A stretch of DNA of 64,000 nt from Candidatus Obscuribacterales bacterium (GTDB lineage: Bacteria; Cyanobacteriota; Vampirovibrionia; Obscuribacterales; Obscuribacteraceae): assembly GCA_031292355.1 (NCBI GenBank), contig JARLHI010000054.1, forward strand, positions 248,001 through 312,000, written 5' to 3'. The position numbers were made by a program, and so were the translations under genes. The notes beneath the pieces are model-generated. The model was not told the origin of the DNA. It saw nothing but the letters and a program-made list of their open reading frames with translations, and did not search any database. Below are positions 5,363 through 36,391 of the stretch, piece after piece; position 1 is the stretch's first letter, and the number at the start of each line of letters is the position of its first letter.

Positions 5363-6352
5363 TTAGCGATCAGGTTGGTCAAGCGCATCCGGTCTGCGTT
5401 TAAGTCCAGTAGTTGAATCCACACTCGTGCCGTCAGGCTTGAGCTTAAAAGTCTTCGACTTACCATCAGGTCTTGTGTCGGTCTCGTCAGTCGTGTCACC
5501 CGTGGTTACATCATGGATACTTGAGCGATCGGCAAAGTTTATCAAGTTGTCTTCATGATAGACACCATCTTTATCTTTCCAGTGACTGTCGTCAGACATC
5601 ACACCACCGAGGTGATCGTATCTTTTGTTCAGGTGATAGTCAGTTCTGCCATCGGCCGTCTGGGCGGCATCTATGTGTTCGAAACGCAGAAGTCCTGTGG
5701 AATCTCTGGTCTTCAGGTCTTTGTAGCCCGCCCTTGTGTCAACCACATTGTCTTCGGTAAATCCATTGGCATGAGTAACCGTTTCATGGCTTTTGCCCGC
5801 CAACAGGTTCTTATCGGTGAGAGATACTGAGTGGTCTTTGCCGACTTTGGTGATAGTTTCTTTGCCACGAATTATAGTGTCATGCTCCCAACTACCATCA
5901 GCGCGCGTAATCAACTTCTCGGTGCTGACACCGTCCTTGATGGTATTAGTTGAGACGCCATTTTGATCAATAACATCATGCTTTTTACCATGAGCGTCTT
6001 TCCAGCTGGTTTCTCGCTCAGTAATGCCTCCTGACTGGTCATATTGTGTGACCTGCCTGAGATCTTTCGAACCGCTAGGAGCGCTTGCGAGCGTCACTGT
6101 GTCCGAAAGAAGCCGTTGGTTGGCGTCTAGCGTTTTTATTGATTCTACGTTGTTCAAACTTTCCGGTCTAGGAAAATCAGGCAGAGGCGGTAGCACATTG
6201 GCTTTCACCATTTTGTCATCACTTTTCGCCAGGTCTTTAGCCGCTTGCGCCTTACCCGCCGGCGTCTGTGGATGAAGCTCCAGCGGCGGCCCAACTACTG
6301 TAGCAGCGGGCTGATCGCTATTTCTTTCGAGGCCTTTGTTTGTTTCAACCAT
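5363..6352 (-). CDS. YD-like repeat protein, paralogue of the 6488-7288 gene
   Basis: 329 residues from ATG 6352, chosen over the TTG at 6358 because 'GGAG' lies about 11 nt upstream. There is no signal peptide. After a Pro-rich N-terminus the protein is built of degenerate ~45-residue units of the pattern YD-x-x-G ... S-x-W-K-D-x-x-G ... H-x-D ... G-x-S/T. Examples are 'YDQSGGITERETSWKDAHG' and 'YDHLGGVMSDDSHWKDKDG'. Such strand-turn-strand repeats recall the YD repeats of RHS proteins. They lack the RHS core signature and any toxin tip. The next gene upstream in the operon is a clear paralogue. Function is unknown. Confidence 0.55.
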   Translation of the reverse strand: MVETNKGLERNSDQPAATVVGPPLELHPQTPAGKAQAAKDLAKSDDKMVKANVLPPLPDFPRPESLNNVESIKTLDANQRLLSDTVTLASAPSGSKDLRQVTQYDQSGGITERETSWKDAHGKKHDVIDQNGVSTNTIKDGVSTEKLITRADGSWEHDTIIRGKETITKVGKDHSVSLTDKNLLAGKSHETVTHANGFTEDNVVDTRAGYKDLKTRDSTGLLRFEHIDAAQTADGRTDYHLNKRYDHLGGVMSDDSHWKDKDGVYHEDNLINFADRSSIHDVTTGDTTDETDTRPDGKSKTFKLKPDGTSVDSTTGLKRRPDALDQPDR

Positions 6353-26940: not shown

Positions 26941-27870
26941 CTAATCGCTTTCGTACTGCACCGGACCACCATTTGTGGCAACAAGCATATTGAGGAATGC
27001 TTTTGCCACTCGATTGGACGGCTTACCATCGCGCCCTTTGTAAGCGACGATAAGCTCCCAGCAAGGCGCTTGGCCGTCAGCCAGCTCGACAACAGCAATT
27101 GGACTGGCCGAAACATCATTGAACCTGGCCATGGCCACCGATTCAGGAATCAAAGCCACGCCCAGCCCCACTGCAACTAGCTCTAATAGCATCGAAATAT
27201 CATTGACTTCAAAGGCGATCGTACGCGCAAGCCCCTTTGTGGCGAAGCTGCGGTCAATCAAACGACGCATACCCCAGTCTGCTTTGAGATCAATGAATGT
27301 TTCAGCGCACAAATCTGCCATCACCGGCGGTGCTGCGCCAGCAAGCGGATTATTAGGAGCGCAAACCAGAACCAAGTCTTCGCAGGCAAGCATTCGGGCA
27401 GTCATACCGCTGCCCACATCTTCTGGCTGAGTAAAAACGAGGTCAAGTCGACCTTCATGCGTCTCACTGAGCAGCGAAAGGGCTCCATCAAGTAAAAGTT
27501 GCACATCGATGCCTGGATGTTTCTGGCGGAAGCGACTGAGGGACGCCGGCAAATCCACAAATGGAGCGAGACTTTGAATCGAGCCGATGCGCAACTGCCC
27601 CCGAGCCAGACCATGCACTTGCGTGACAGCCAGGCGCGCCTGCCGCATCGCTGAAACAACGCGATATGCTTCTTGCAATAGAACTACACCTGCCGGAGTA
27701 AGGTCGACATGGCGGGTCGTCCGGATAAAAAGCGGTCCTCCCAGTTCTAGCTCTAGGGAGCGGATTGTCTGCGATAGACCAGATTGGACCAGATTAAGAC
27801 GCTGAGCGGCCTTAGTAAAATGGCGCTCTTCGGCAACGGCGATAAAGCAATCCAGTTGCTTCAAATCCAT
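26941..27870 (-). CDS. LysR-family transcriptional regulator
   Basis: 309 residues. The N-terminal winged helix-turn-helix is classic: 'MDLKQLDCFIAVAEERHFTK', 'AAQRLNLVQSGLSQTIRSLE' and 'LGGPLFIRTTRHVDLT'. A co-inducer-binding domain of the periplasmic-binding-protein fold follows ('GQLRIGSIQSLAPF'). It is transcribed divergently from the aldo/keto reductase gene 173 bp away, the usual arrangement for a LysR activator and its target. An inverted repeat lies between them. The effector is unknown. Confidence 0.9.
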   Translation of the reverse strand: MDLKQLDCFIAVAEERHFTKAAQRLNLVQSGLSQTIRSLELELGGPLFIRTTRHVDLTPAGVVLLQEAYRVVSAMRQARLAVTQVHGLARGQLRIGSIQSLAPFVDLPASLSRFRQKHPGIDVQLLLDGALSLLSETHEGRLDLVFTQPEDVGSGMTARMLACEDLVLVCAPNNPLAGAAPPVMADLCAETFIDLKADWGMRRLIDRSFATKGLARTIAFEVNDISMLLELVAVGLGVALIPESVAMARFNDVSASPIAVVELADGQAPCWELIVAYKGRDGKPSNRVAKAFLNMLVATNGGPVQYESD

Positions 27871-27929
27871 AATTTTAGGTACTCTTATTAAGCACTTTTA
27901 CTACTTACTATCATCAGATCTTTCCATTG

Positions 27930-27944
27930 GACTAATAAATAGTC
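27930..27944. promoter_or_regulatory. Putative LysR-binding inverted repeat
   Basis: GACTA-ATAAA-TAGTC is a perfect 5-5-5 inverted repeat in the divergent region between the LysR gene and the aldo/keto reductase gene. With flanks it reads CCATTGGACTA...TAGTCAATGG, extending the symmetry with one bulged base. It has the size and AT-rich centre of a LysR site, and is a good candidate for regulation of both genes. Confidence 0.5.
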
Positions 27945-28043
27945 AATGGTCCATACTGTTTAAATAAGTTGGTTTTTCAAGCATTTGCTGACACTGTCAC
28001 ATTTGCGCTAAAAACCTGCGCACGGCAAAGGGAGATTGGACAA

Positions 28044-29048
28044 ATGGAATATAGACAGCTTGGCGCGAGTTCGGTCAAAGCCTCAGTCATTACTTATGGC
28101 GCATGGGCCATCGGCGGCACCATGTGGGGTGGCTCCGATGAAAAAGAAGCAATCGAAGCAATACACGCCTCAATCGACGCTGGAGTCACATCAATCGATA
28201 CAGCGCCTATCTATGGTTATGGCAAAAGCGAAGAGCTGGTTGCTAAAGCCACAGCTGGTAAGCGCGACAAAGTGCAAATCTTCACAAAATTCGGTCTAGT
28301 CTGGGATTCAACAGAAGGTGAACACTTCTTTGATCTGACCGAAAATGGCAAGACAGAAAATATCTACAGAAACGCTCACAAGAAAAGCGTCATCGCCGAG
28401 TGCGAAAGAAGCCTCAAAAGATTGAACACAGATCATATCGATTTATATCAATGCCACTGGAGAGACCACACTGCCTCTCTCGAAGAAACTATGGAAGCGC
28501 TGCAGCAGTTGCTGAAGGAAGGCAAAATTCTCGCCGCCGGTGTAAGCAATTTCACAGCTGACGAAATCAAAGAAGCAAACACATTCGTGCCAATTGCTTC
28601 CAATCAACCTCCATATAGTATGGTACTCAGGGACATTGAAAAAGACGTGCTGCCATTTTGCCGCGACAACAACATTGGCACCATCGTTTACAGTCCCCTT
28701 CAACGCGGCTTGCTCACAGGCAAATTCAAACCCGATCATAAATTTGCCCCAGGCGATCACCGCGCCAGTCAGCCTCAATTCCAACCAGAGTTCATCAAAA
28801 AAACAAATGCGTTCCTGGAAGAATTGAAACCGCTTGCAGCCAAATATCACACCACGGTTGGCAACGTTGTTCTTAACTGGACGATTCATCAACCAGGCGT
28901 AACTGTTGCCCTCGTTGGCGCTCGTGACGCAGCTCAGGCTGTGGAAAACGCCAAAGCGGCGTCCTTTAAACTGGATGCAGCCGATCTCGAAGCAATCAAT
29001 AATTCATTGAAGAAACTCAATGAAAGTGGAGTGCTTGCGCACTCTTGA
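28044..29048 (+). CDS. Aldo/keto reductase
   Basis: 334 residues from ATG 28044, set by 'GGGAG' about 9 nt upstream; an upstream start at 27969 adds unlikely residues. AKR (beta/alpha)8 motifs: 'SIDTAPIYGYGKSEELV' with catalytic Asp and Tyr, 'VQIFTKFGLVW' with Lys, 'IDLYQCHW' with His, and 'TIVYSPLQRGLLTGKF' for NADPH binding. It reduces aldehydes or ketones with NADPH in the cytoplasm. Physiological substrate is not evident. Probably controlled by the divergent LysR gene. A strong hairpin follows the stop by 34 bp. Confidence 0.9.
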   Translation: MEYRQLGASSVKASVITYGAWAIGGTMWGGSDEKEAIEAIHASIDAGVTSIDTAPIYGYGKSEELVAKATAGKRDKVQIFTKFGLVWDSTEGEHFFDLTENGKTENIYRNAHKKSVIAECERSLKRLNTDHIDLYQCHWRDHTASLEETMEALQQLLKEGKILAAGVSNFTADEIKEANTFVPIASNQPPYSMVLRDIEKDVLPFCRDNNIGTIVYSPLQRGLLTGKFKPDHKFAPGDHRASQPQFQPEFIKKTNAFLEELKPLAAKYHTTVGNVVLNWTIHQPGVTVALVGARDAAQAVENAKAASFKLDAADLEAINNSLKKLNESGVLAHS

Positions 29049-29082
29049 TTGATTCCTAAATCAAAACAATCGCAGTAACTAA

Positions 29083-29128
29083 TGAAGCGACAGTCATGTG
29101 CCATTGCTGGGCATAGACTGTCGCTTCA
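29083..29128 (+). terminator. Strong hairpin after the aldo/keto reductase gene
   Basis: Arms TGAAGCGACAGTC and GACTGTCGCTTCA pair perfectly over 13 bp, with a further TGCC/GGCA pair inside. It begins 34 bp after the reductase stop. No T-tract follows, so it may stabilise the mRNA 3' end or stop transcription only weakly. Symmetry lets it act in both directions. Confidence 0.5.
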
Positions 29129-29196
29129 AACTGCTGCACAACGCGGCCCGTTTTTGCTAGTGCGACATCGGTATGCGTTGCTATGGCTGAATCTAT

Positions 29197-29254
29197 GCAT
29201 TCCGGAAGAGAAATTCCGGAAGAAAGCATTCCGGAATAGAGATTCCGGAATAGC
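29197..29254. repeat. Tandem 29-bp unit carrying four ATTCCGGAA copies
   Basis: Two imperfect 29-bp units (29197-29225 and 29226-29254) each hold two copies of ATTCCGGAA, at 29199, 29213, 29228 and 29242. The core TTCCGGAA is itself palindromic. Copies are 14, 15 and 14 bp apart. The block lies 92 bp upstream of the TetR operator and could be an array of binding sites or a decaying repeat. Confidence 0.7.
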
Positions 29255-29346
29255 TCTGCTATATAGCGAAAAAGAAATAAGCTCCGATAACGAAAGCCCT
29301 TCGCTGAGTGGCTTTAAATTTAAGTTTTGTCCTATCGTTATTTTTA

Positions 29347-29379
29347 ATTATTGACTCAAAACCATTTTTGGTCAATAAT
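29347..29379. promoter_or_regulatory. TetR operator, copy 1 (before tetR)
   Basis: ATTATTGACT and GGTCAATAAT are inverted 10-bp half-sites separated by 13 bp. The site sits 22 bp before the TetR ATG at 29402. An identical-architecture site precedes the HlyD/EmrA gene at 31749-31781. Repetition of the same half-sites and spacing at two promoters of one cluster is strong evidence for an autoregulatory operator. Confidence 0.75.
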
Positions 29380-29401
29380 GAAGATCGAATGCGAGGTAAA
29401 T

Positions 29402-30016
29402 ATGGCCAGACCGAAAGTCGATGTAAATCGCGCGCAAAACATTATCGAAGCAGCTGACGAATTGTTCGCCAGATATGGTTTCGAGCGCACAAGCATGGAC
29501 GATATCGCCAAGCATTCTGGTATCGGCAAAGGTTCTATATATCTAGAGTTTCGTACGAAAGAAGAAATTCTTTTTCGTATTCTTGAACGTTATGCAGTAT
29601 GCATTGAAGAAAGCTTTAAAGCTAAATTAAATGATCAAAAACGATCGCCTTTAGCCGTTTTGCGAGAAGCTTACATAGAAGAGAGTATTAATTGTTACGA
29701 CCGAGTGACTAGAGATATTCACACTCCGGAGACTTTGCTGCACACGTCGATTGCTATGAAAAAGCATTTTGCCGCATTCTACGTAAGACGTCGAAAACTT
29801 CTTCATGAGTTATTGATCAAAGCGGCAAAAGCAGGCGAAATAAAAAAGAGCCGAGCCACGGATGAAACCGCACTCGCGTTGATGATGGCTGTTTCAACCT
29901 TGTTTCCACCGTACTTTGACAATTTTTCCGAGTCTGCTGTAATCAAAAATCGGCAGGACTTAATAGATAGAGGTCCGGCACTTGTTGATCTTTTAATCGC
30001 AGGATTAAAGAGCTAG
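29402..30016 (+). CDS. TetR-family repressor of the efflux cluster
   Basis: 204 residues from ATG 29402, set by GAGGTAAAT directly upstream and by the position of the operator; the frame stays open to 29351 but that would place the operator inside the gene. The N-terminal helix-turn-helix is typical: 'IIEAADELFARYGFERTSMD', 'DIAKHSGIGKGSIYLEFRTK' and 'EEILFRILERY'. The C-terminal ligand domain is helical. It probably represses its own gene, the MFS pump 96 bp downstream and the adaptor/TolC pair. The inducer is unknown. Confidence 0.9.
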   Translation: MARPKVDVNRAQNIIEAADELFARYGFERTSMDDIAKHSGIGKGSIYLEFRTKEEILFRILERYAVCIEESFKAKLNDQKRSPLAVLREAYIEESINCYDRVTRDIHTPETLLHTSIAMKKHFAAFYVRRRKLLHELLIKAAKAGEIKKSRATDETALALMMAVSTLFPPYFDNFSESAVIKNRQDLIDRGPALVDLLIAGLKS

Positions 30017-30112
30017 ACTCTTCAACTTCAAAATCAAATTCTTTTTTACACAAAGAAGTCTCTTGTGAAAGACTATTCAGTCGAAGCGACTTTTATTTCA
30101 GCGTGATCGAAA

Positions 30113-31702
30113 ATGGCAACCTTTTTTCAGGAAGAACTGCAGCGGCAGGTCGATGAGCGTGGCGAAATCGTTCGTTGGATGATGCTCATTGGAGTGTCAG
30201 TTGCAGCACTAATGGAAGTCATCGATAGCAGTATCACAAATGTAGCTTTGCCACACATTCAGGGGAACCTCGGCGCAACAACAAGCGAAGCAGCCTGGGT
30301 AGTGACTGCGTATTCCATTGCCAACGTCATCACGATGCCACTGGCGGTGATGCTCGGACATATGTTCGGCAAAAAAAGCTATTTCATTTTTTCAATTATT
30401 GGATTTACTATCGCTTCTATCGGTTGCGGTATGGCCTCATCGCTTCTCTTTCTGGTTCTTGCTCGAGTCGTGCAAGGATTGTTTGGCGGCGGGCTGCTAG
30501 CGAAGGCGCAGGCATTTCTATTTGAAGGTTTTCCACCTGCTCAACAAGGAGCTGTACAAGGGATTTTTGGGATTTGTGTTCTTGTTGGTCCAGTGCTTGG
30601 TCCGACTCTCGGTGGCTGGATTACAGACAACTACGATTGGCGCTGGATTTTCTTCATCAACGTGCCAGTTGGTATCGTCTCAACCCTCTTATGTCAGGCC
30701 TACGTGCCTAAGGATGCTCCACGTAACGCTAAACCAGACAAAGATGCAGTAGATTGGTTGGGCATAAGTTCTCTTAGCGTCTGGCTCGGCTGTCTTCAAT
30801 ACGTTCTGGAAAAAGGACAGGATGACGATTGGTTTTCATCAAAGACGATTATCTTTTGCTCGGTTGCAGCGGTACTGGGCTTCATCGTCTTCCTTACTCA
30901 TTCGCTTCGTACAAAGCGTCCGGCAGTAGATTTGCGCATCATGCGTTATCGCTCCGTAACAGTAGGTTTGTTCTTCCAAACTATCGTCGGCTTTGTTCTC
31001 TTTGGATTGAACTACATCATTCCAAGCTTTGCTCAGCTCATGCTTGGCTACACAGCTTTCCAAGCCGGTCTGCTGCAAGTTCCAAGTTCAATTATTACTG
31101 GCATTATGTTTCCTGTCGTAGGAGCGTTTGCCGGAAAAATTGATGCACGTATTCCGGTAGTAACCGGCTTATGTTTGATGGCAGCATCTTGTTATTTTCT
31201 AGAACCAATTACGCTAAATTGGGGATGGAATGATTTCCTGATACCCAGCTTGTTTCGAGGCTTTGGTGTAGTGCTCGTCTTTTTGCCGCTGACCATGGCC
31301 GCCGTTGGCGACTGTCCGGCAGAAGATATTCAAACAGCATCATCTTTACTCAGTCTCGTTCGGACGCTTGGTGGAAGCATTGGTATTGCGATGCTTGCGA
31401 CGCTTGTCGTTCGTCGCGAAGACTTCCATCGCAACGTTCTTGTCGAAAAAGTCACACCTTATTCAGCAGAAGCAGTGACACGCCTTAATCAATTCACACA
31501 AAACTTTCAGCATCAAGGCTGGTCCCTTGCCGATGCGAAAGTAAAGGCTCTCCATGCCCTTGCGCAGCAAGTCGAGGCTCAAGCGGCAGCACTTTCCTAT
31601 GCCGATCTGGCTTCAATATTGACGATATTTATTTTGTGCACTTTGCCATTTTGTCTTATGCTCACTTCCGGAAGAAGAAACGCCAAAATTGAGATGCACT
31701 AA
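30113..31702 (+). CDS. MFS multidrug transporter, DHA2/EmrB-QacA type
   Basis: 529 residues with 14 predicted membrane helices. DHA2 motifs: 'LMEVIDSSITNVALPHIQGN' in helix 1, 'SEAAWVVTAYSIANVITMPL' in helix 2, 'MLGHMFGKKSYF' as motif A, and 'GPVLGPTLGGWITDNYDWRW' with the motif C Gly/Pro pattern. EmrB-type pumps expel hydrophobic compounds using the proton gradient, and form a tripartite system with an adaptor and TolC. Both are encoded next. A 15-bp tandem duplication covers the stop codon. Confidence 0.9.
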   Translation: MATFFQEELQRQVDERGEIVRWMMLIGVSVAALMEVIDSSITNVALPHIQGNLGATTSEAAWVVTAYSIANVITMPLAVMLGHMFGKKSYFIFSIIGFTIASIGCGMASSLLFLVLARVVQGLFGGGLLAKAQAFLFEGFPPAQQGAVQGIFGICVLVGPVLGPTLGGWITDNYDWRWIFFINVPVGIVSTLLCQAYVPKDAPRNAKPDKDAVDWLGISSLSVWLGCLQYVLEKGQDDDWFSSKTIIFCSVAAVLGFIVFLTHSLRTKRPAVDLRIMRYRSVTVGLFFQTIVGFVLFGLNYIIPSFAQLMLGYTAFQAGLLQVPSSIITGIMFPVVGAFAGKIDARIPVVTGLCLMAASCYFLEPITLNWGWNDFLIPSLFRGFGVVLVFLPLTMAAVGDCPAEDIQTASSLLSLVRTLGGSIGIAMLATLVVRREDFHRNVLVEKVTPYSAEAVTRLNQFTQNFQHQGWSLADAKVKALHALAQQVEAQAAALSYADLASILTIFILCTLPFCLMLTSGRRNAKIEMH

Positions 31703-31715
31703 ATTGAGATGCACT
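31686..31715. repeat. 15-bp tandem duplication at the MFS stop codon
   Basis: The unit AAATTGAGATGCACT occurs twice head to tail (31686-31700, 31701-31715). The MFS stop TAA at 31700-31702 spans the junction. The second copy lies in the untranslated spacer and so does not alter the protein. It looks like a recent slippage or repair event. Confidence 0.8.
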
Positions 31716-31748
31716 AAGAAGATCTACTTTGTAAAAATGGGGCATTGA

Positions 31749-31781
31749 ATTATTGACCTGATTTGAAAATTGGTCAATAAT
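31749..31781. promoter_or_regulatory. TetR operator, copy 2 (before the adaptor gene)
   Basis: ATTATTGACC and GGTCAATAAT flank a 13-bp spacer, the same design as copy 1 at 29347-29379. It lies 59 bp before the adaptor ATG, between the MFS stop and the adaptor. The spacer sequences differ while the half-sites are kept, as expected of selected operators. It implies a second promoter for adaptor and TolC. Confidence 0.75.
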
Positions 31782-31840
31782 AAAAATACGGAAACATCAG
31801 CTGCGCTCACAGCAGCAATTTGATTAAGAGGACGACGACG

Positions 31841-33181
31841 ATGGCTGCAACGATGGAAGATCTCGAAAAGCTTCAGGACGTCAAAGCGGGCACTGACACA
31901 GCACGTCCTGCTCAAATCAAAGAATCTGCGGAAACCGGTAATAAGCCACAACCTCCCAACAAGAGTTCTAACAAAATTGTGCCCAAGTTACTTGTCGGTG
32001 CCGTAGCTGTCTCAGCTCTTGTTGGCAGTTATTTCTGGTTCCAACATGCCATGTCGATAGAAGGCACCGACGACGCCTATATCACTGGGCATGTGCACCA
32101 ACTGAGCGCTCGAGTGTCAGGCTATGTGACGCAGGTTGCAGTCGATGATAACGACCACGTCAAAACCGGTCAGACGTTGGTGACAATCGACCCCAAAGAC
32201 TATCAACTGGCTGCCGAAAGCGCCAAAGCTGCAGCTTTAAAGGCGCAGTGGCAAACAGTGCAAGCTAAATCAGATATCCTGACGAATACTAAGCAAGCTG
32301 ATTCGCAAAGCCTGCAAGCCGTGTCAGCAATCGGTTCAGCTCAAGCACAAATTCATCGCGCTCAAGAATCTTTGAACGACACGAAGCTTGGAGTGATTCT
32401 CTGCAAGACAGCGATCACACAGCGTCAATCAGAATTGACCAGAGCAATTGCAGACTATGAGCGCTACAAATCTCTCGTTGACGACCGTGCAGTGACGACT
32501 CAAGCTTATGACAAAGCTAAGCAAGACAAGGAAGTCGCTCAAGCCAATTTAGATGGAGCGCAGGCAACGTACAATCAGATGCTCGTCAAAGTAAAAGAAG
32601 CCGAGCAATCTCTTCTCGATACAAAAACAAACGCTGTTAAAGCTCGCGGTATGCAAGCAAGCGCCGCAGCCGCGATAGCTGCCACAACATCCAGCGAAAA
32701 GAATGTTTCAGTGCAGCAAGCTGCCGCTGAGCAAGCAGAAGTTGAGTATAAAAATGCCCTCACTCAACTTTCGTACACCAAGGTGCTTGCACCAATTGAA
32801 GGTACCGTCGGACACAAGACAGTTGAAGTCGGTCAGCAAATTGAAAAAGGTCAAGCTCTAATGAGCATCGTCTCCGACGAAAAATGGGTCGTTGCCAATT
32901 TTAAAGAGACTCAGCTTGGTCGCATGCATGTTGGTCAAGAAGTCGAAATAAAAGTGGATCGCATTCCAAACAAAGTCTTCATCGGTCACGTGCAATCGCT
33001 TTCTCCTGCGTCAGGCGCTCAGTTCAGTATGCTCCCACCCGACAATGCCAGTGGTAATTTCACAAAAGTGGTGCAGCGCATTCCTGTGAAATGTGTTTTC
33101 GACAAAGAAAGCATCAAGGGATTTGAATCAATGCTTGCGCCTGGAATGTCCGTTGTCGCTGAAGTGCATTTAAAGGACTAA
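31841..33181 (+). CDS. EmrA/HlyD-type membrane-fusion adaptor
   Basis: 446 residues from ATG 31841 ('AGAGGA' about 9 nt upstream); a TTG at 31820 is less likely. One N-terminal membrane helix ('LLVGAVAVSALVGSYFWF') is followed by 'EGTDDAYITGHVHQLSARVS' and 'VDDNDHVKTGQTLVTIDP', the biotinyl-lipoyl half-motif of EmrA. A long coiled-coil hairpin comes next, then the second half 'TKVLAPIEGTVGHKTVEVG' and a beta-barrel. It links the inner-membrane MFS pump to the TolC channel. Confidence 0.92.
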   Translation: MAATMEDLEKLQDVKAGTDTARPAQIKESAETGNKPQPPNKSSNKIVPKLLVGAVAVSALVGSYFWFQHAMSIEGTDDAYITGHVHQLSARVSGYVTQVAVDDNDHVKTGQTLVTIDPKDYQLAAESAKAAALKAQWQTVQAKSDILTNTKQADSQSLQAVSAIGSAQAQIHRAQESLNDTKLGVILCKTAITQRQSELTRAIADYERYKSLVDDRAVTTQAYDKAKQDKEVAQANLDGAQATYNQMLVKVKEAEQSLLDTKTNAVKARGMQASAAAAIAATTSSEKNVSVQQAAAEQAEVEYKNALTQLSYTKVLAPIEGTVGHKTVEVGQQIEKGQALMSIVSDEKWVVANFKETQLGRMHVGQEVEIKVDRIPNKVFIGHVQSLSPASGAQFSMLPPDNASGNFTKVVQRIPVKCVFDKESIKGFESMLAPGMSVVAEVHLKD

Positions 33182-33243
33182 GACTAAGAAAGCAACAGAT
33201 CAGCCAGATCAAGCAAGATAAAAAGGGACCGGAAGGATCGATA

Positions 33244-34935
33244 ATGAGAGAACGAGTGTGGTCGTCGCCTGGACATTTGTCCTTGAGACATCTTCTAATT
33301 GCCACCATATGCAGTACTAGCATCACCCCCGCACTAGCAGTAAGCGAAGTCAGAGATCAAACTGTCACAGTTGATCAGGCGACGGCTCTGCTCAAGACGA
33401 AGATGCCCAATATGAGCGATAAGAAGCCTCCCCAGTACTTTGTGGAAGTTAACCGTTCTCAGGAATTGCGCCCGATCGGGCTTGAGCCAGTCAAGCCTGT
33501 GGAGCACATCGCCGGAACAGAAAACAATTCAGCTGGAATTCCTGTCACCAACGATGAAGCTTTTGTGCCTCTGACACGTCCGCCGCTCCAGGCTTTGATT
33601 TCAGTGCAGGCGAATCTCAATCCTTTTTCAATGGATGCCACGCACAGTGAACGTGTGAATCTCAAAGATGCACTGATCTACGCCACTGCGCAAAACCTGG
33701 CCATTGAAAATTCCTTTGACAGCTTCAAGAGTCAAAGATTTAAATATCTCTCTGCCACATCTAAATTCCTGCCTGATATAAAAACCGGCTACAGTTTGGT
33801 TGGCTTGACGGGCAGTTTACCTGGGACACTCCTTGGCGGGACCACGGCAAGCGCAGGTGGCACTCCTACAAGCATTCAACTGCCATCTCACGCCCAGGTT
33901 CTCAATGCCGGATTTGTCTATCACGCTTATCAGGGCGGCAAAGTACTTTTTGGCTCGCTTGAAGAAAAGCATCGATTACGGGCCTCGCGTGCGGCTTTGA
34001 AAGGCAGTGTCAATGATGTGCTCCTCGATGGCACCAAACGCTATTACAACCTGGTTTTAAATGAAGCATTGCTCGAGATTCGTAATCGAGCAGTAGAAAT
34101 TTCATTAGAGCAAGTACGTATGAACTCGTCGCAAGAACACGCCGGCACAGCAACTGGGTTGGACGTCTTACAATCGCAGGCACAACTAGCAAGTGATCAA
34201 CAAAATCTTGTTGATCAACAAAGCACACGCAGACAGTCGGCAATTCAATTATCTGCTGTACTTAATGCCAGCTTCGCACAAGATTTGGTGTCACAAGAAG
34301 AGACTCTCCGCAAAAAGCGGGTGATACCGCAAATAGTGCCTATCGACAAACTACTACTAATCGCCATCGACAACAGACCAGAGTTAAAACAATACGAAGA
34401 ATTACGACTTGCTGCCAAAAGAGCAATCATCGTAGCATCAGCGCCCCTTCAACCAAATATCAATCTAGCTGGGACTTATTATGGAATCGGAGCATCTCAC
34501 TCGGGCACTCAAGCGATTGGCGTCTTAAATTTTTCCATCGCCTGGACGCTTGGCGCCCTTGGCACAACTGATTTAGCCAATATTCAACAAGCCCGCTGGC
34601 AAGCCAGACAAGCAGCAGTGCAAGCAAAACAAACGTTTCAAGATGTTTTCGAGCAGGTACGGATTGCTTATGACCAGAGCCTCGCTGCCGATAAACGGAT
34701 TGAGTCGGCAAGCGCTCAGATTATCGCCGCCGACGAAGAATTACGCATCGCGAAAAAGCGTATGTCTGCTGGACTGGGCTTAAACTTAGACGTCTTGAAC
34801 GCCCAGAGAGACCGCACGCAGGCCAGTATAAATAAGGCGCAAGCCATCGTCGACTTCAATATTGCTCAAGCTCAGCTCTTGCACGATGTTGGTCTGATCT
34901 CGGTTGAGACGGTCACTAGCGGCGCGAAAATTTAA
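33244..34935 (+). CDS. TolC-family outer-membrane efflux protein of the EmrAB-type system
   Basis: 563 residues, ATG with 'GAAGGATC' upstream and a signal peptide ('LLIATICSTSITPALA'). After a ~110-residue linker, two OEP repeats follow: 'RVNLKDALIYATAQNLAIEN' opens the first, and 'LLLIAIDNRPELKQYEELRL' the second. 'NINLAGTYYGIGAS' to 'LNFSIAWTLGALG' marks the second barrel hairpin, with only a short outer loop. It should trimerise into a channel-tunnel across the outer membrane. The gene follows the adaptor by 62 bp. Confidence 0.9.
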   Translation: MRERVWSSPGHLSLRHLLIATICSTSITPALAVSEVRDQTVTVDQATALLKTKMPNMSDKKPPQYFVEVNRSQELRPIGLEPVKPVEHIAGTENNSAGIPVTNDEAFVPLTRPPLQALISVQANLNPFSMDATHSERVNLKDALIYATAQNLAIENSFDSFKSQRFKYLSATSKFLPDIKTGYSLVGLTGSLPGTLLGGTTASAGGTPTSIQLPSHAQVLNAGFVYHAYQGGKVLFGSLEEKHRLRASRAALKGSVNDVLLDGTKRYYNLVLNEALLEIRNRAVEISLEQVRMNSSQEHAGTATGLDVLQSQAQLASDQQNLVDQQSTRRQSAIQLSAVLNASFAQDLVSQEETLRKKRVIPQIVPIDKLLLIAIDNRPELKQYEELRLAAKRAIIVASAPLQPNINLAGTYYGIGASHSGTQAIGVLNFSIAWTLGALGTTDLANIQQARWQARQAAVQAKQTFQDVFEQVRIAYDQSLAADKRIESASAQIIAADEELRIAKKRMSAGLGLNLDVLNAQRDRTQASINKAQAIVDFNIAQAQLLHDVGLISVETVTSGAKI

Positions 34936-35059
34936 AACCAACGGGGTATGTTGGTGATGAGGACTTATTGACTTTTATTGAAGGTCCACGAATTGTCCAC
35001 AATCCTTTGATACTTTAGCTGTACAGCAAGCTTTAAGTGCTGACCGCCAGGTAATTCAA

Positions 35060-36391
35060 TTGCCACCTTCATCTCACCATAAAAATTCATTTTTCTTGAC
35101 GGCGCTCGTTCTTTTGACGCAGATTTCCACCGCTTCCGCCGCTGAAATTAGCGAACATATGAAAGCGGGGCAGCAACTATTTCAGTCAAAAATGTATCGT
35201 GCGGCAATCTCCGAGTTCGAACAGGCAACAAAAGAACAACCAAACGACGCCACGGCGCATTATTACCTCGCCGTTTCGCATGTGCGCGCAGGCAATGTCT
35301 CTCAAGCCTACCCCCATTTTCAACAAGCCAGCGGACTTAGCACCAACAACAGTCAAATTCATCAGATGGCCTCTTCGGCTCTCAATGCCTATCGTAGTGA
35401 GCCCACTCTCGTTCAAAATACGGCAACCGCAGCGCCTGCAAATATTGGTCCGCTCATGCCAAGCAAATCCTATAACGGAGGTGCATCGGCTGAACTGGAT
35501 AAACAGTCTTCATTCGGGAGTTCATCGCCCTTATGCAATCAACCAACGCAATCGACCTACACGCCCGCTCGCAATTTCTCCCCTGCCAATTTTTCACAAT
35601 CGCCCCAAGCTCTCTATCCGCAAAACTTCAATCACATACCTGGATATCAAAGCAATAAGGCATGGGGAGCGACGAACAAGAATCGCTCAGGCATGTGGGG
35701 TACAGGCGGCGGTCACTCCGGATATAACGCCGGTGGCGCCGGAATTTCTAGTTATAGTGGCGGAACAGTTCCTGTAACACCTACTCTTGCAATTTGGAAC
35801 GCCAATTCCTCTGTGCCAATTACCAAAGATATGACGGCTGCCGATCAATCTCTAACCATGATCAAACGGCAATCAGACACCCAGGTACATAATGCCGCAA
35901 ACGGCGTGCACATGGAATATTACGGCTCAAGTCTCAATTATCAGCAGGACCAAATTCGACGAAACGCACAAGCACAAATCGACAAAATGCTCACGCCAAC
36001 TTATCACGGCAGACGTCGTGGCTATTACAGCACGGCCTCGCAAGCGCAAATCGATCTCGTAAATTATCAAGCCGGCGCGCAGATATTCAATATGCGCCGA
36101 GAAACCGACAGAGCCGAAAACGCTCGACAGATCCAACAGGCAACAAGTGAAGCAGCTGCTAATTTAAGTGACCAAATTAGAGACCAGAGGTTGACCGGAA
36201 GTGGTGTAATGCTTCGCGCCGAAGGCACTAATTTGAATGTTCGCAACTATGAAACCTTTCACTCTGATAAAGACGACAGAGACGCAATTTTACCAATGGT
36301 TGCACATCCTATGACTCTAAAAGAAGCAGAAAAATCTTTGCCAGTAACCCCGTTAACAGTGCCTACGAAGCATTACTCAATTGATCAATAA
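35060..36391 (+). CDS. Secreted TPR protein with long Asn/Gln/Ser-rich region
   Basis: 443 residues. The start is TTG 35060 with 'CAGGTAA' upstream; the signal peptide 'FLTALVLLTQISTASA' then falls correctly. Residues ~30-110 hold two or three TPR units ('MKAGQQLFQSKMYRAAISEF', 'ATAHYYLAVSHVRAGN'). Residues ~120-290 are low-complexity, rich in Asn, Ser, Pro and Gly. The C-terminal part is helical with Gln/Ala. No family beyond TPR is recognised. The next gene starts inside its last 11 bases, so the two are translationally coupled. Confidence 0.6.
   Translation: MPPSSHHKNSFFLTALVLLTQISTASAAEISEHMKAGQQLFQSKMYRAAISEFEQATKEQPNDATAHYYLAVSHVRAGNVSQAYPHFQQASGLSTNNSQIHQMASSALNAYRSEPTLVQNTATAAPANIGPLMPSKSYNGGASAELDKQSSFGSSSPLCNQPTQSTYTPARNFSPANFSQSPQALYPQNFNHIPGYQSNKAWGATNKNRSGMWGTGGGHSGYNAGGAGISSYSGGTVPVTPTLAIWNANSSVPITKDMTAADQSLTMIKRQSDTQVHNAANGVHMEYYGSSLNYQQDQIRRNAQAQIDKMLTPTYHGRRRGYYSTASQAQIDLVNYQAGAQIFNMRRETDRAENARQIQQATSEAAANLSDQIRDQRLTGSGVMLRAEGTNLNVRNYETFHSDKDDRDAILPMVAHPMTLKEAEKSLPVTPLTVPTKHYSIDQ

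Follow-up and report, generated by a model that had tools for sequence, protein, structure and literature searches.

Genes and palindromes of the efflux locus

The window, i.e., the whole stretch of 64,000 nucleotides that was analysed, harbors four genes of an efflux locus, all on the plus strand. They code for a TetR-family repressor (P0003, 204 aa, 29402..30016), an EmrB-type DHA2 MFS efflux permease (P0001, 529 aa, 30113..31702), an EmrA/HlyD-type periplasmic adaptor (P0004, 446 aa, 31841..33181), and a TolC-like outer-membrane efflux channel (P0002, 563 aa, 33244..34935), respectively. The permease scored 433.5 bits against TIGR00711 (cut-off 230.2), which places it in the EmrB type, and the repressor, which starts with MARPK and has its helix-turn-helix at about residues 32-50, scored 61.7 bits against PF00440 (TetR_N, cut-off 24), as expected of a TetR helix-turn-helix. 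The HlyD-type domains of the adaptor exceeded the Pfam cut-offs, and its score with TIGR00998 (EmrA/EmrK-type) was 237.8 bits, under the cut-off of 390.8; the channel was recognised by its OEP domain (121.6 bits, cut-off 22), its match to TIGR01844 reaching 101 bits, under the cut-off of 225.15.

Two 33-bp palindromes, to which no strand is assigned, share the motif ATTATTGACY-N13-GGTCAATAAT. Palindrome 1 (29347..29379), ATTATTGACT...GGTCAATAAT, has 9-bp arms, the tenth pair (T/G) being unmatched, and ends 22 bp before the ATG of tetR (29402); palindrome 2 (31749..31781), ATTATTGACC...GGTCAATAAT, has perfect 10-bp arms and lies between the MFS gene and the ATG of the adaptor gene (31841). Each of them is a predicted TetR operator fused with a promoter, namely P1 of the tetR-MFS genes for the former and P2 of the adaptor-channel genes for the latter. 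The first-pass annotation had reported one 33-bp copy before tetR and one before the adaptor gene, with differing spacers and conserved half-sites; both copies were found exactly there, and their 13-bp spacers are indeed not alike.

A chance origin of the palindromes was considered and ruled out, since none of 100 dinucleotide-shuffled versions of the window contained a match to the 33-bp motif, and the core TTATTGAC-N15-GTCAATAA occurs in the whole genome (6,596,444 bp, 83 contigs) at two places only, i.e., palindromes 1 and 2, with no occurrence of the reversed-pattern control. Allowing up to three mismatches in the full pattern retrieved three extra places, each with three mismatches and on other contigs (reversed control, 0). 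The scan for random occurrences that the first-pass annotation had proposed thus returned two places in 6.6 Mb, and the motif is not commonplace.

As a separate observation, the region 29199-29251, some 100 bp ahead of palindrome 1, carries four ATTCCGGAA repeats placed 14-15 bp apart. This tandem arrangement was found nowhere else in the genome, and the loci of the relatives (L051-L097) have at most two copies of TTCCGGAA each; the ATTCCGGAA repeats are possibly the site of another regulator.

Phylogenetic distribution of the sites

Each of the 16 close orthologs of this TetR (identity 49-100%, counting that of the window itself) has the sequence TTGAC-N15-GTCAA before tetR, with an arm spacing of 15 in every one of them and both arms exact in 15, the degenerate site 1 of G080 having one mismatch. 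Among the ten loci in which the MFS and adaptor genes are adjacent, the second site is kept at nine junctions (window, G030, G095, G101, G036, G001, G111, G103, and G099) and is absent from that of G089. The TetR of G089 is the first branch in the 16-row clade of the TetR tree, so that the second copy may be either a gain later than the G089 split or a loss in G089. Two further loci are reduced: G123 keeps TetR and the MFS permease with no adaptor nearby, and G133 keeps TetR and the channel, the MFS and adaptor genes not being nearby.

Arm variation was examined in a set of 33 sites, which omits L025 (degenerate), L031 and L032 (letters identical to those of L029), and G099:C172, and whose counts come from related and not independent sequences. 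The outer arm pair 4/30 is complementary in 21 of these sites (shuffle mean 15.0, p 0.006); this covariation indicates that the dyad symmetry of the site has been kept, which speaks for its role as an operator. The earlier proposal, in which one pump has two promoters that are repressed separately, stands as a prediction, given the regular occurrence of the motif with tetR and of its second copy at the adaptor junction.

The comparison was then extended to the wider class (Obscuribacterales, Vampirovibrio, and Gastranaerophilales) and beyond it. The test of distant sites covered 53 of 80 loci, since 15 (L083-L097) are contigs already present among the close orthologs and 12 were left out. Out of the 20 in-class loci (L098-L117), nine have an N15 site, eight have an N16 site, and three have none, one of these three lacking upstream DNA; among the 33 TetR homologs that do not belong to the class, none has both arms exact. 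In a group of 14 more distant homologs, seven sites are exact N15, one is N15 with nine of ten letters, and three are exact N16; of the three homologs with no site, one is without upstream DNA, and L080 shows an exact N15 on longer DNA.

The N15 site is also present before TetRs that are only about 30-37% identical to that of the window, in Vampirovibrio, Vampirovibrionales, and Gastranaerophilales-type genomes. In those loci that were read far enough (L102, L104, L105, L107, and L116) such a TetR gene is followed by a gene of adaptor size and by one of about 970-1050 residues, which, judging from length and letters only, looks like an RND-like pump. The TTGAC-N16-GTCAA form occurs at eight loci of a separate sister TetR clade (support 100/100). 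The N15 or N16 spacing follows the TetR tree, and the site remains beside TetR even where another type of pump is present.

This distribution bears on the idea that a regulator other than the adjacent TetR owns the sites. In its favor, three genus-g9 genomes have N15 sites next to a hydroxylase-like gene, and no close TetR ortholog was detected in one of the three (G059, 83% complete); nevertheless, the position of the site directly before tetR in every close ortholog, together with the way in which the two spacings track the TetR tree and the persistence of the site beside TetR across the pump change, makes this idea very improbable.

Two other features of these upstream regions were recorded. 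In seven loci of the N16 clade (L108, L109, L112-L115, and L117) the operator is followed by a strongly conserved block, CGTTAATTGTAAAAT, which may contain the -10 of a promoter with another architecture. Moreover, L098 and L099 have a second, weaker TTGAC-N15-GTCAT in tandem after the first site, upstream of tetR.

A predicted promoter within the palindromes

Each palindrome contains the sequence TTGACY-17 bp-AATAAT, readable on both strands, which had escaped the first reading of this DNA. The predicted P1 core promoter (29351..29379, plus strand) consists of a -35 TTGACT (29351-29356), a 17-bp spacer, and a -10 AATAAT (29374-29379), with a predicted start near 29386; the predicted P2 core promoter (31753..31781, plus strand) consists of a -35 TTGACC (31753-31758), a 17-bp spacer, and a -10 AATAAT (31776-31781), with a predicted start near 31788. 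On the minus strand, the putative mirror promoters of P1 (29347..29375) and P2 (31749..31777) both read TTGACC-17-AATAAT, and the -10 of the former is less well conserved. A spacing of 17 bp is the optimal one for sigma70, according to PMC12825309.

The top four promoter-like sites in 29000-35200 are the two strands of the two palindromes. Furthermore, of 24 upstream regions from EmrB-type loci, 23 have the embedded promoter as their highest-scoring sigma70 match, the weights of the scoring being approximate E. coli frequencies; this scoring left out G099:C172, and the adaptor regions outside the window ended a fixed 55 bases past the site and not at the start codon. The corresponding figures are eight out of nine for the RND-type upstream regions versus two out of eight for those of the N16 clade.

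The genome encodes a SigA/RpoD-like sigma factor, whose alignment with a solved SigA revealed an identical stretch of 38 residues and a nearly identical C-terminal helix-turn-helix, which are the parts that bind the -10 and the -35. A search of the genome for TTGAC-N18-TATAAT retrieved two places, as did the reversed control, so that strict consensus promoters are not enriched, and no clear -35/-10 signal was detected in 124 upstream regions taken from about 0.42 Mb. The reading of an E. coli-type promoter therefore rests on the sequence of the sigma factor.

One might suppose that the palindromes are TetR operators only, their likeness to a promoter being accidental, and that RNA polymerase starts from a more distant upstream promoter and is stopped by TetR as a roadblock. 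The lack of enrichment of strict consensus promoters agrees with this, and so does the N16 clade, which keeps the TTGAC half-site without a matching -10 and where the embedded sequence is mostly not the best promoter, so that TetR alone can account for the TTGAC arms. Against it stand the ranking of the embedded promoter in the EmrB-type regions and the uneven conservation of the two strands: AAT on the forward -10 side is conserved in 31 of the 33 sites, versus 21 for the mirror ATT. All ten discordant sites go in the same direction (10:0), though, the sequences being related, they may represent three or four events; adding the omitted L025 (neither arm matched) and G099:C172 (both arms matched) would not change this ratio. 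Moreover, three loci (L098, L099, and L102) have the full -35 consensus, TTGACA, in the left arm and thereby depart from symmetry. On balance, we consider the operator-only explanation unlikely. The same forward bias weakens the view that both strands are used equally.

Palindrome 1 ends so close to the ATG that a promoter could not be accommodated between the two; across the 16 close orthologs, 20-82 bp separate the GTCAA arm from the ATG, and in the tightest of them no other promoter fits downstream of the site.

A further possibility is that the palindromes act as RNA hairpins (an attenuator or a processing site) and not as DNA sites. Both do fold strongly (z about -4.7), as any near-perfect palindrome would, but a hairpin would be expected to conserve its pairing and not its letters, and the TTGAC/GTCAA letters are near-constant while the spacer drifts; the location of the site ahead of tetR persists from one pump type to another, and a start located after the right arm would leave palindrome 1 outside the P1 transcript. 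No match to a known RNA element was retrieved from Rfam in 27000-36000. We regard this explanation as extremely improbable.

Proposed regulation and comparison with known systems

The model of the TetR protein (pLDDT 86.5) has the standard TetR fold, with helices at residues 32-39 and 43-49. Its near-tied top fold matches include QacR, AcrR, MtrR, and SmeT, together with fatty-acid-type regulators; QacR, AcrR, MtrR, and SmeT gave Z values of 15-17 over about 180-190 residues, which indicates that the ligand-binding domain is covered, and the QacR match (Z 17.0, 3.0 Å over 182 residues, 18% identity) is tied with others. The recognition helices are 37 Å apart in the QacR dimer and 38.2 Å apart in the CprB dimer (PMC4150764). 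From centre to centre, the TTGAC arms are separated by 20 bp, i.e., about two helical turns, which by arithmetic and not from a structure corresponds to about 68 Å in B-DNA. With arms about 68 Å apart and a helix pair separated by 37-38 Å, a single TetR dimer is unlikely to read both arms, and two dimers side by side on each palindrome would be the likeliest arrangement, as judged from the arm spacing only. SimR reportedly uses an N-terminal extension in the minor groove. Most N15 TetRs in the tree start with MARPK, MARTK, or MGRKK before the first helix, and the N16 proteins there do not; by analogy, the N-terminal arm of the N15 TetRs may read the outer A+T letters, which is a guess.

Overall, we propose, with a probability of about 0.8, that each palindrome is a combined promoter and TetR operator and that P1 and P2 are repressed together. 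The locus would then most likely be a TetR efflux operon under autoregulation, in which a promoter-operator cassette is present twice. The proposal builds on the sites themselves, their uniqueness, their conservation, the covariation of the arms, and the promoter match. The arms ATTATTGAC/GTCAATAAT would be recognised by TetR (29402-30016), and their letters would double as the -35 (TTGACY, left arm) and the -10 (AATAAT, end of the right arm) at 17-bp spacing. Since the arms would be the -35 and -10 themselves, TetR bound to the palindrome would cover the whole core promoter, and P1 (tetR-emrB) and P2 (emrA-tolC) would be shut off together. A pump substrate, as the presumed inducer, would detach TetR from the DNA and allow both units to be expressed, after which TetR would bring repression back. 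P2 probably supplies extra adaptor and channel on top of the read-through from P1, with a presumed effect on stoichiometry.

In a variant of this scheme, the palindrome would be a portable symmetric promoter-operator cassette, active on both strands without TetR, whose minus transcripts dampen sense transcription or compete with it and of which one was copied into the operon for a separate adaptor/channel dose. If so, the minus transcript of P2 would enter the pump gene at its 3' end, and that of P1 would run toward the upstream aldo/keto reductase gene; the 15- versus 16-bp spacing, as it differs across the class, would mark the gain or loss of the fusion by a single base. We deem this variant improbable.

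The combined promoter-operator reading has several partial counterparts. In Staphylococcus aureus, QacR, likewise an efflux repressor with the TetR fold, binds as a pair of dimers a long inverted repeat (IR1) overlapping the qacA pump promoter, as described in PMC3022030. Unlike the QacR/IR1 system, which serves an MFS pump, the half-sites here would be the -35/-10 hexamers on both strands, in two copies, and the pump is presumably tripartite. Moreover, the arms of the present palindromes are presumably farther apart than those of IR1. E. coli AcrR is likewise a TetR-family autorepressor of a tripartite pump, and its promoter, PacrA/acrR, is read both ways, with a shared -10 and with starts commonly 10, 18, or 23 bp apart (PMC12825309). 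In contrast, each strand here would have its own -35 and -10, with predicted starts about 46 bp apart and a minus transcript without a gene; bidirectional promoters as defined in that source have opposed starts inside a common -10 or on its two sides, whereas here each strand would have its -10 at the outer end, so that the palindromes do not fit that definition.

The genes resemble those of E. coli EmrR-EmrAB-TolC in the EmrB-type permease and probably also in the EmrA-like adaptor and the TolC-like channel (TIGR00711, TIGR00998, and TIGR01844 matches, the last two below their cut-offs). EmrR is a MarR-family protein (PMC6469979 and PMC13053672), whereas the regulator here is a TetR protein and the channel gene lies beside the adaptor gene. 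Among the other fold matches, CprB occupies its 22-bp site with two dimers (PMC4150764). For DarR, the title of the structure entry reports dimer-of-dimers binding. Both proteins have operators and ligands other than those considered here. No promoter fusion is known to us for either of them.

The overlap of repressor sites with promoters is common; here, the letters of the repressor site appear to be those of the promoter as well, mirrored on both strands and duplicated within one operon. In the open-access literature, no account of this operator or of a TetR efflux regulon in these bacteria was found among the matches listed. The arrangement is kept across Obscuribacterales, Vampirovibrio, and Gastranaerophilales despite the change of pump type, and it gives a concrete regulon prediction in non-photosynthetic relatives of cyanobacteria; the spacing of 15 versus 16 offers a natural comparison for how an operator becomes a promoter.

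Lastly, some palindromes lie before other genes. In L073, L074, and L075 (G059, G080, and G099, respectively) an N15 palindrome precedes a gene for a membrane protein, which from its sequence letters looks like a fatty-acid hydroxylase, with a UbiA-like gene adjoining; the spacer of G059 is unlike those of G080 and G099, and the TTGAC/GTCAA arms are kept. In L076 (G109:C33), the palindrome at 5495-5527, in which the ATTATTGAC/GTCAATAAT arms are complete, precedes an ORF of 145 residues with a strong ribosome-binding site, which is a possible extra member of the regulon.
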